Below are positions 54,434 to 58,029 of a DNA stretch of 64,000 nucleotides, piece after piece. The notes below the pieces were generated by a model. That model searched no databases. It was not told the origin of the DNA and saw only the letters and a list, made by a program, of their open reading frames with translations. Every line of letters begins with the position of its first letter. The first letter of the stretch is position 1. The stretch comes from Verrucomicrobiales bacterium (GTDB taxonomy: Bacteria > Verrucomicrobiota > Verrucomicrobiia > Verrucomicrobiales > DEV007). The stretch lies in the NCBI GenBank assembly GCA_002726915.1, contig PBSY01000038.1, forward strand, positions 62,001-126,000. The letters are read 5' to 3'. Both the position numbers and the translations under genes were made by a program.

Positions 54434-55057
54434 TCAAGAAGACAAAATCATGATTGCCTCCTCTACCTCCTCAAACAAACGCACCTTGCCCAGGTGTTGG
54501 CGCAAGACCCTTGCATTCGTCGTGCGAGATACATCCTCTCCGACCTCTCCGAAAGTATTTAACAACACACCCACACATTCCAAGCCGGCCGCTTGAACGG
54601 CTGCCACCGACAGCAGCGTATGATTCATTACCCCAAGCCGATTCGCCGCCACGACCAAAACAGGTTGCCCTAACTGAACCGCTAAGTCGACCATCGTCCG
54701 AGTTTCATCTACTGGAACGACCCAACCGCCAGCTCCTTCGATGATAACAAGTTCACTCTTAGCGGCGAGCTCATGATAGGCCCCGCAAAGAAATTCGAAA
54801 TCAATTGTAACTCCATCCATGGAAGCAGCTGGTGCAACGGCCTCGGTCAGATTTACCGGGTTAACTTCCTCTCGCGTAAGATCATCACGACCCGAAGCAG
54901 CGAGCAGCGCATCGGAATCGAACGTGCTACCGCTCTCAATCGGTTTCATCCCAACGGCATCAATACCATGCCTGCGCAACACTTCAATCAAGCGAACGGC
55001 CACCCACGTCTTGCCAACATTGGTGTCGGTCCCGGTGATAAATAATCCACCCTTCAT
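54434..55057 (-). CDS. bioD: Dethiobiotin synthetase BioD
   Basis: Closes the ureido ring of dethiobiotin from DAPA and CO2 with ATP in biotin synthesis. The 207-residue protein has the P-loop GTDTNVGKT (residues 9-17), MKPIESG, and EGAGGWVVPVDE. The start codon shares its first base with the glmM stop (TAATG), so it is coupled to glmM. No other bio genes are in the window. Confidence 0.95.
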   Translation of the reverse strand: MKGGLFITGTDTNVGKTWVAVRLIEVLRRHGIDAVGMKPIESGSTFDSDALLAASGRDDLTREEVNPVNLTEAVAPAASMDGVTIDFEFLCGAYHELAAKSELVIIEGAGGWVVPVDETRTMVDLAVQLGQPVLVVAANRLGVMNHTLLSVAAVQAAGLECVGVLLNTFGEVGEDVSRTTNARVLRQHLGKVRLFEEVEEAIMILSS

Positions 55058-56421
55058 TAAACTCCAATCTCTTCCTCAATGGCAGCAGCCAGTTCGTTAA
55101 TTTTTGTTTTGATCTGCTCGGTATCACGACCTTCAACAAGAATTCGCAAAAGAGGTTCAGTGCCGGAGTAGCGGATCAAAACTCGTCCACCGTCACCAAG
55201 TTCACTCTCAATTTCAGCGACTTTCACAGATGCTTTCATCTCTTTGAGCTCTGGTTTCTTTTTAACCCTTAAATTGCGCTGAATCTGTGGGGATTTGGTC
55301 AACACCTTCCGCAGTTCACTGAGGGGCTTCCCCGTCTCCTTTATGATGCGGAGCAATTGCAGTGCCGAGACAAGACCGTCTCCAGTAGTATTGTGATCCA
55401 GAAAGATAAAATGACCACTCTGCTCACCACCAAGGTTGTAACCTCGCTCTTTCATCTTCTGAAGGACGTAGCGATCACCGACGCCAGTGCGAATAACCTG
55501 ACCGCCAACTTGACTGACCGATTCTTCAAGCCCGGCGTTACTCATCACCGTCGCTACAAGTGTGTTATCCTTAAGGGAGCCTTCTCCAATCATGTGAACG
55601 GCGGCGATAGCCAATACTTCATCGCCGTCGAGCGCGGAACCGTTTTCATCACAGAACAGGGCGCGGTCCGCATCCCCATCGTGTGACACCCCAATATGGG
55701 CGCCAGTTTCTTTGACTAGCCCTTCGATTACATCGGTATGAGTGCAGCCGCAGTGAGCGTTGATATTGGTGCCATTTGGCTGGTCGTGAAAGCTTATAAC
55801 TTTCGCACCTAAAGAGCGAAATGCGGCAGCACTGGTTAGGTGGCTCGCACCATTAGCAGCATCGAGAGCAATCGTCAGGCCGTCCAACAAAGTCTCGTCA
55901 TTACCGACACTTTCCCGGACAAAAGACACGTAATCCTCAGCAGCATTTTTGAGTGGAAAACCGCGCCCCGTCGCTCCGTTATAAGCGTTTGGATCAGAGA
56001 GAACGCAACGTTCGATATTAACCTCTAAAGAATCGTCAAACTTGAACCCATCAGACCCGAAAAATTTGATACCATTATCCTCGAAAGGATTGTGGGAGGC
56101 GGAAATAACAACGCCAAGGATCGCGCCGCACCGCCGGGTCAACATCGCGACAGCCGGGGTCGGAACCACTCCGGCAAAGAAGGTATTAACGCCACGGGAA
56201 TTGAACCCAGCGGCTATGGCCTGCTCCAGCATGTCACCGGACTGGCGAGTGTCCTTGCCGATGACAACGGATGGCCACTCCTCGCTGTGTTCGCTTTTCC
56301 TGAGAAGCACCTCAGCCACTACCTGTCCAAGGCGCACTGCAAACTCAGGCGTGAGAGGATAATGGTTGGCCTTTCCGCGAATGCCGTCAGTTCCGAAGAA
56401 CTGTCTCTTAATGTCACTCAT
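55057..56421 (-). CDS. glmM: Phosphoglucosamine mutase GlmM
   Basis: Converts glucosamine-6-phosphate to glucosamine-1-phosphate, leading to UDP-GlcNAc and peptidoglycan. The 454-residue protein shows FFGTDGIRG at the N terminus, phosphoserine S109 in VISASHNPFEDNGIKFFG, the metal loop DGDADR, and the sugar-binding GEQSGH. The phosphate-binding RYSGTEPLLR is near the C terminus. It follows the mini-cdaR gene by 12 bp in the cdaA-cdaR-glmM arrangement known from Firmicutes. Confidence 0.97.
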   Translation of the reverse strand: MSDIKRQFFGTDGIRGKANHYPLTPEFAVRLGQVVAEVLLRKSEHSEEWPSVVIGKDTRQSGDMLEQAIAAGFNSRGVNTFFAGVVPTPAVAMLTRRCGAILGVVISASHNPFEDNGIKFFGSDGFKFDDSLEVNIERCVLSDPNAYNGATGRGFPLKNAAEDYVSFVRESVGNDETLLDGLTIALDAANGASHLTSAAAFRSLGAKVISFHDQPNGTNINAHCGCTHTDVIEGLVKETGAHIGVSHDGDADRALFCDENGSALDGDEVLAIAAVHMIGEGSLKDNTLVATVMSNAGLEESVSQVGGQVIRTGVGDRYVLQKMKERGYNLGGEQSGHFIFLDHNTTGDGLVSALQLLRIIKETGKPLSELRKVLTKSPQIQRNLRVKKKPELKEMKASVKVAEIESELGDGGRVLIRYSGTEPLLRILVEGRDTEQIKTKINELAAAIEEEIGV

Positions 56422-56433
56422 GTTGCGTGAAAG

Positions 56434-56664
56434 TCAGTTGCCGGAGTTATCGCCGGGAACCGGAGCCGTTAAGGGAGCAAGCATGGCTTCCTCAAGACCT
56501 GGAACCGCCGACGTTCGCGCTGGCGGAGGCGTACCCGTTCCGGGGACTGGGAATGTAGGATTATCACGGTCGAGATGAGATTTGATCACGTACCAGATCG
56601 CCGTCGCGATGACAAGGGACAGGAGTTTGGCAAGCCAGCTTTCTACGAAAAAGGTTTTAATCAT
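56434..56664 (-). CDS. Mini-CdaR: membrane anchor of a YbbR-like protein without YbbR repeats
   Basis: A 76-residue protein. Residues 3-29 (KTFFVESWLAKLLSLVIATA then IWYVIK) are the membrane anchor typical of CdaR/YbbR proteins, which regulate CdaA. The rest is a Pro/Ala-rich, probably disordered periplasmic tail; the three or four YbbR repeats of normal CdaR (about 400 residues) are missing. It overlaps the cdaA 3' end by 8 bp and precedes glmM, exactly the cdaR place. It may still contact CdaA through its helix. Loss of the repeats by truncation is the alternative. Confidence 0.7.
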   Translation of the reverse strand: MIKTFFVESWLAKLLSLVIATAIWYVIKSHLDRDNPTFPVPGTGTPPPARTSAVPGLEEAMLAPLTAPVPGDNSGN

Positions 56665-57466
56665 CGCTTTCTTCCTCCTCCTCTTCAGCCTCTGCCTCAG
56701 GATTGCTCAACAACTCGACGAGACGGTTGTAGAGCTCTTTCTCTTCTAGATCGCGCTCCAGTTTCCCTCCGATCGCAATCGAGATCGCCCCAGTTTCTTC
56801 TGAAACCACCAGAGCAATCGAGTCGGACTCTTCAGTAATGCCCATCGCTGCGCGGTGGCGCAAGCCGATCCCTGGGTCTTTTAATTCCCGTTGAATCACG
56901 GGAAAGAGGCAACCGGCTCCGGAAATCCGCTCGTCCGCCATACGAACGATCAACCCACCATCATGGAGCGTGGTGCCACTATGAAAAATCGTGTAGACAA
57001 GGGCAGGGGACAATTCACTGTCCATTCGCGTTCCAGTATCTAGATACTGCTTTAAATCAATACCGCGCTCAATCGCAATCAGCGCACCAACCCTTCGACC
57101 CGAAAGTGTTTCCATGATCTCGATAAGAGTCTCAGCGAAGTGCATCCGCGAACTCTCGTTCATCGAAGAAAAGAACCGGTGGCTGCCAAGCTCGGCCAAG
57201 GCTCGGCGCAGCTCTGGCTGGAAAATGATGACGAGTGCAATAGCAAGAAAGACGGATACATACTTTAAGAGCCAACCAATCACAGTGAGATCGAGTGACT
57301 CCGACAACAAGGTCATGCCTATGTAGATGCCGATCAGCGCAGTGAAAATCCGCGCTCCACGAGTGGCTCGAAAGTAGCGGTAGGTATTGTAGATAATCAA
57401 CCACAGGATGAGGACCTCGAGGGCCTGCCTCCAGTGTTGATTAATAAATTGTCCTACCACATCCAT
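56657..57466 (-). CDS. cdaA: Diadenylate cyclase CdaA
   Basis: Makes the second messenger c-di-AMP from two ATP. The 269-residue protein has three N-terminal membrane helices (about residues 13-27, 38-56 and 62-82) and a DAC (DisA_N) domain. The catalytic DGG (D169-G-G171) in LHDGGLIV stands for the usual DGA, and the RHR block R203-H-R205 is in GLRHRAAMG. The acidic tail (EAEEEEEESDD) is unusual. It is followed by mini-cdaR and glmM, a well known functional trio. Confidence 0.94.
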   Translation of the reverse strand: MDVVGQFINQHWRQALEVLILWLIIYNTYRYFRATRGARIFTALIGIYIGMTLLSESLDLTVIGWLLKYVSVFLAIALVIIFQPELRRALAELGSHRFFSSMNESSRMHFAETLIEIMETLSGRRVGALIAIERGIDLKQYLDTGTRMDSELSPALVYTIFHSGTTLHDGGLIVRMADERISGAGCLFPVIQRELKDPGIGLRHRAAMGITEESDSIALVVSEETGAISIAIGGKLERDLEEKELYNRLVELLSNPEAEAEEEEEESDD

Positions 57467-57540: not shown

Positions 57541-58029
57541 TTACTTCCTGTCAGGTAGAGCGATCGAAGCAGTGGCAAGAGCGGCGATGCCTTCCTCGCG
57601 TCCAATGAATCCCATCGTCTCATTGGTAGTCGCTTTAATCCCGATATCAGTGGCATCCATGCCGAGCGCTTCGGCAATCTTTTCTTTCATCGCCGAGACG
57701 TGTTTCATCACCTTCGGCGCCTCGGCAATAAGGGTGGAATCAATATTCTCAATATTTCCCCCTTTCTCTCCGACCAGCTCGGCCGCTTTCTCCAGAATCT
57801 TCAGGCTGTTAATGCCTTCGATACTGTCATCGGTTGGAGGAAACCAGTAGCCGATGTCTGGTTCCCCGATTGCACCAAGAATCGCGTCGGCTACCGCATG
57901 AGCCAGAACATCGGCATCGGAATGTCCAGACAGTCCTCTGGGATGAGGAACTTTGACGCCACCCAGAATCAGGGGCCGCCCTTCTGCGAACTGATGCACA
58001 TCGTATCCAATGCCACTGCGGTATCTCAT
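57541..58029 (-). CDS. ispF: 2-C-methyl-D-erythritol 2,4-cyclodiphosphate synthase IspF
   Basis: A step of the MEP isoprenoid pathway, forming the cyclic diphosphate. The 162-residue protein has zinc ligands D10 and H12 (GYDVHQF) and H44 in SGHSDADVLAHAVADAILGA, and ends with the conserved GIKATTNETMGFIGREEGIA. It lies 12 bp after the IMPase-like gene and 74 bp before cdaA on the same strand. The other MEP genes are elsewhere. Confidence 0.97.
   Translation of the reverse strand: MRYRSGIGYDVHQFAEGRPLILGGVKVPHPRGLSGHSDADVLAHAVADAILGAIGEPDIGYWFPPTDDSIEGINSLKILEKAAELVGEKGGNIENIDSTLIAEAPKVMKHVSAMKEKIAEALGMDATDIGIKATTNETMGFIGREEGIAALATASIALPDRK

Follow-up and report, generated by a model that had tools for sequence, protein, structure and literature searches.

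The stretch of DNA analysed here (the window, 64,000 nucleotides of a contig from a Verrucomicrobiales bacterium) carries a cdaA operon on its minus strand, in which the order cdaA, mini-CdaR gene, glmM proposed by the initial annotation was borne out. The features are as follows:

57541..58029, minus strand: ispF (TIGR00151, PF02542), upstream of cdaA and co-directional with it
56657..57466, minus strand: cdaA, membrane-bound diadenylate cyclase of 269 aa with HDGG and RHR motifs (TIGR00159, PF02457, PF19293)
56669..56682, minus strand: 3' codons of the acidic tail of CdaA, GAG GAG GAG GAA GAA (from the sequence)
56434..56664, minus strand: anchor-only (mini) CdaR gene, 76 aa (frame conserved, purifying selection, anchor profile E 5.7e-14 in a search of the whole genome)
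56569..56664, minus strand: membrane anchor of the mini protein, residues 1-32, motif W10-x2-K13-x6-A20-x3-W24 (alignment of 108 minis)
56437..56568, minus strand: Pro-rich, predicted extracytoplasmic tail of the mini protein, residues 33-76 (alignment, pN/pS 0.44)
55057..56421, minus strand: glmM, phosphoglucosamine mutase of 454 aa (TIGR01455, 545 bits)

The mini gene lies between cdaA and glmM here and in relatives; its first 8 nt overlap the end of cdaA and its stop codon lies 12 nt ahead of glmM. A further gene, bioD (54434-55057), begins at the end of glmM, which gives an operon ispF-cdaA-mini-glmM-bioD. The full matches claimed for the two flanking proteins also held, as both passed the cut-offs of the curated models (CdaA: TIGR00159, 212 bits, cut-off 189; GlmM: TIGR01455, 545 bits, cut-off 448). 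CdaA has all the features of its family, i.e. the CdaA_N membrane domain (PF19293, E 2e-8), the DAC domain (PF02457, E 2e-34), DG[AG] and RHR. Two peculiarities had been ascribed to it. The replacement of DGA by DGG was read correctly but is not peculiar to this protein, HDGG being present in 95 of the 100 CdaAs of the phylum sample, including the outgroup with full-length CdaR. The acidic tail was confirmed; it differs from family to family, and its codons just upstream of the mini start may double as the Shine-Dalgarno sequence of the mini gene.

The mini product begins MIKTFFVESWLAKLLSLVIATAIWYVIKSHL and consists of one hydrophobic helix (about residues 13-29) followed by the Pro-rich tail (10 Pro in 46 residues). 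It found no family match in Pfam or NCBIfam, even at E<=1, in keeping with its first description as a CdaR anchor with a Pro-rich tail and no YbbR repeats. Among the 108 anchor-only proteins aligned, 97 show an N-in charge bias, and fusions of CdaA with the anchor (see below) place the start of the helix after the cytoplasmic DAC domain; the predicted topology of the mini protein is N-in, C-out.

A full-length cdaR elsewhere in the genome was searched for with two profiles and was not found. The Pfam YbbR model had no match at E<=10 in the whole genome (92% complete). This model alone is an insufficient test of absence, since CdaRs with one YbbR domain from sister families mostly score below its cut-off, and for this reason a class-specific YbbR profile (A1) was built from 20 such one-YbbR CdaRs. 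Profile A1 found no match in the genome under study and just four weak partial matches across the 142 genomes of the order (best E 0.003), none of them credible. In the class, it matched 49 of the 286 genomes, none of which belongs to an anchor-only family. The cut-off of the Pfam model was passed by 207 of the 388 genomes of the phylum sample, and among the matches listed one falls in the bacterium's own class. In five class genomes (G626, G565, G569, G266 and G527) a stop codon lies inside the YbbR or CdaA match, probably because the match extends past the true end.

The gene between cdaA and glmM was collected across relatives (188 loci examined), and an alignment was built from 108 separate anchor-only proteins, which represent 22 families. 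Their length ranges from 41 to 118 aa (median 57), and the anchor is strongly conserved at profile positions W9 (90%), K12 (98%), A19 (94%) and W23 (99%), which correspond to W10, K13, A20 and W24 of the mini protein in the window. Within the class, at least 22 families have the anchor-only gene. With an anchor profile for whole-genome searches (A2), matches were obtained in 119 of the 142 genomes of the order: 119 of the 133 CdaA-positive genomes had the anchor, compared to none of the 9 CdaA-negative ones (Fisher p 1.6e-8), and every one of the 119 best matches was on the same strand as the CdaA match and directly 3' of it (gap -29 to 326 nt). The anchor is not universally required, as it was undetectable in 14 CdaA-positive genomes of the order, and some lineages have lost the mini gene altogether. 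CdaA-positive lineages in which no anchor was detected comprise f82 and some genera of f1 (L111, L112, L113, L114, L115-L117, L119, L121) and are natural controls for what CdaA needs. In families f4, f6 and f86, many genomes, several of them complete, had no anchor and either no CdaA match or a marginal one (E about 1e-4 to 1e-7); CdaA seems to have been lost in many of them or replaced by another cyclase.

Among single-contig genomes, one of 8,220,857 bases was taken to be Verrucomicrobium spinosum, and an anchor-only gene was also found in one of 2,664,102 bases, which we take to be Akkermansia muciniphila. In Akkermansia-like genomes the mini gene stays with cdaA, though the downstream DNA that was sampled yielded no glmM, and in one family (L192) it sits before glmM with cdaA elsewhere. 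That the mini gene follows cdaA, and sometimes glmM, is as expected for a part of the CdaA/GlmM complex.

Several architectures of CdaR could be distinguished. Full-length CdaR occurs outside the class (L001, L002), one-YbbR CdaRs of about 120-165 aa in families of the class such as f17, f89, f91 and f99, and the anchor-only form in the bacterium's own order and many other orders. Four changes between YbbR and no YbbR were counted on the CdaA tree (a quick tree with some long branches), so that YbbR was probably lost more than once. In three lineages (L083, L086 and L122) the anchor is found in frame at the C-terminus of CdaA, after a linker. The fusion of L083 recurs as the same 329-residue open frame in two more genomes of its genus, and on the CdaA tree the fusions take 3 changes, at least 2 of which are forced by the starred branches. 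A joint MAFFT alignment of fusions and separate minis misplaced the minis.

In addition, at 28 sampled loci the final 65-135 nt of cdaA also encode the anchor, in a different frame (L023 was excluded, its overlap being an artefact caused by a secondary match), and when cdaA was recoded synonymously the observed anchor score was reached in 0 of 5,600 trials. Judged from the sequences, these overlaps appear to be a clear case of a transmembrane helix that is dual-coded with the C-terminal tail of an enzyme. In Opitutales-type and other families (L130-L134, L136, L138-L140, L143, L144, L183, L185, L186) the whole anchor helix occupies the second frame of the last ~90-135 nt of cdaA, and the CdaA proteins end in a tail that recurs among them, '..L(V)(S/P)(D/H)'.

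The 76-residue frame of the window is conserved: it is kept in every sampled member of the genus that holds the region, and no broken copies were seen in the genus. Nineteen genus-level sequences gave a pN/pS of 0.37 for the anchor part and of 0.44 for the tail, and in a close pair (L005/L006) 22 of about 57 synonymous sites had changed compared to 3 of about 168 nonsynonymous ones. The mini gene is under purifying selection and not in decay. The disappearance of the YbbR repeats and the complete loss of the gene in some lineages might suggest a cdaR remnant in decay or a frame that arose by chance, but these pN/pS values, the lack of broken copies in the genus, the occurrence in at least 22 families and the anchor frames kept inside cdaA against all synonymous recodings refute this reading, to which we give practically no credence. 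The initial suggestion that the regulator has decayed does not hold for the whole gene: the loss is confined to the YbbR part and took place long ago, probably several times.

Homology to CdaR is indicated by the anchor-only profile, which matched the N-termini of one-YbbR and of some full-length CdaRs at about 20-38 bits (best 37.6), with a best background score of 9.0 bits; several full-length CdaRs from outside the phylum matched weakly (11-16 bits). Conservation repeats along the helix every 100-105 degrees both in proteins without YbbR (p 0.003) and in those with it (p 0.0008), and the two conservation profiles correlate (r 0.76). One face of the helix (K12, S/C15, L16, A19, W23, I/V26) is conserved with or without YbbR, and a face that is invariant regardless of the sensor domain that follows is best read as a putative protein contact in the membrane. 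The alternative that an unrelated small membrane protein took the place of cdaR draws on the shortness of the homology evidence that a single helix can offer and on the low scores of the CdaRs outside the phylum; we consider it improbable, because intermediates exist that carry the same anchor together with one YbbR domain, the operon slot is the same, several CdaR N-termini score 25-38 bits over a background of at most 9, and the invariant K, A and W lie on the same helix face.

When the anchor and CdaA were compared by paired mutual information, 19 of the top 60 pairs fell in the CdaA membrane region (20 expected), i.e. there was no enrichment. An AlphaFold2 model of a natural fusion, built on a four-row alignment, reached a pLDDT of 53, at which the secondary structure alone is usable (helix 284-316). 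No solved CdaR anchor was found in the PDB, where entry 9G69 contains CdaA with GlmM.

The short overlap with cdaA and the distance of 12 nt to glmM would also suit an inert leader peptide that couples translation to glmM. This is very improbable, given that the gene persists where no glmM follows, that anchors are fused to CdaA, and that conservation acts at the amino-acid level on one helix face.

In known systems, CdaA is reported to be contacted in its membrane region by CdaR and in its catalytic domain by GlmM (PMC6368335, PMC8573169, PMC8316131), and the binding of CdaR to that region alters c-di-AMP (PMC8573169, PMC12422730), while the mode of this control has been called unclear (PMC8573169). 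In Chlamydia, a relative within the PVC group, YbbR is needed for DacA activity, i.e. it activates (PMC12422730); in Porphyromonas, CdaR/YbbR represses (PMC9259658); and in S. aureus YbbR is without clear effect on DacA (PMC6368335). The mini protein shares with the CdaR / YbbR family (PF07949; Firmicutes, Chlamydia and others) the slot between cdaA and glmM, the N-terminal helix (predicted to be N-in), the K-x6-A-x3-W face and the co-occurrence with CdaA, but it has no YbbR domain, measures 41-118 aa across its relatives, and in some of them forms a fusion with CdaA or shares its coding DNA with the 3' end of cdaA. Sister families of the class have one-YbbR CdaRs (for example L152, L153, L162 and L179) with the same anchor and the same operon order, which differ from it in their length (about 120-165 aa) and in having one YbbR domain that mostly scores under the Pfam cut-off. 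As it lacks the defining domain, the mini protein is not counted as a member of the YbbR family.

We favour, as fairly probable, the reading that in the mini protein CdaR has been cut down to its membrane anchor and that this helix is a small transmembrane subunit of CdaA. Against it stand the 14 CdaA-positive genomes of the order with no detectable anchor, the missing enrichment in the mutual information, the poor model of the natural fusion and the absence of a clear YbbR effect on DacA in S. aureus. The earlier proposal that CdaA control depends on the anchor alone draws support from the purifying selection, from the presence in at least 22 families and from the co-occurrence and adjacency with cdaA, and it is further backed by the in-frame fusions and the one conserved helix face; the physical binding to CdaA, the topology, and the effect on its assembly or activity are what we infer from these patterns. 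The single N-in/C-out helix would use its invariant face to pack onto the CdaA membrane region and would assemble, position or activate the cyclase (activation is favoured, though the helix may instead stabilise or restrain CdaA), and GlmM would act separately on the cytoplasmic catalytic domain. The extracytoplasmic YbbR repeats would be accessory, probably sensory, and would have been lost several times in Verrucomicrobiota with the helix kept.

Alternatively, the helix may just hold the Pro-rich tail, which as a tethered envelope sensor would bind a periplasmic partner or the wall and so replace the YbbR input. Purifying selection acts on the tail within the genus, where it keeps two motifs (FPVPGT and L-E/D-D/E-x-L/I-L-x-P-L...PVPG, ending P(V/I)PG). 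Outside this group, however, tails are short and unlike this one (a median of about 27 residues beyond the helix and a minimum of 7), although the helix motif is unchanged, and we regard a sensor role of the tail as unlikely, though less so than the other alternatives. On the favoured reading of the CdaR helix, YbbR would be a dispensable add-on, and in this bacterium, as in most Verrucomicrobiia, the part that does the work is probably the helix. A broader version, to which we give somewhat less than even weight, is that the ancestral, essential function of CdaR is to provide a fourth transmembrane helix for CdaA and not YbbR sensing, and that in most Verrucomicrobiia the enzyme works with this helix alone, as a separate micro-protein, an overlapping gene or a fusion.

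KdpF, CydX and AcrZ are examples of small subunits with a single helix that may stabilise or tune the membrane enzymes to which they belong. Like them, the mini protein is a short helix whose gene adjoins that of a large membrane protein, but it has no homology to them and its partner is a diadenylate cyclase. The full texts searched, with few subscription papers among them, yielded no report of a CdaR without YbbR or of CdaA-anchor fusions. The class offers a natural truncation experiment performed many times over, in which the sensor domains are gone and the helix is kept, even fused to the enzyme, and this points to the contact between helix and CdaA as the core of control. Anchor-only systems are minimal, cloneable test cases for CdaA control, and one important gut genus, Akkermansia (as we take the genome to be), has anchor-only genes. 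Gene callers may miss the minis, owing to their size (41-118 aa) and their frequent position within cdaA or at its end. Finally, at L108 (family f83) the anchor 3' of cdaA is preceded by an N-terminal extension of ~100 residues rich in Ala, Lys and Arg, unlike all others.
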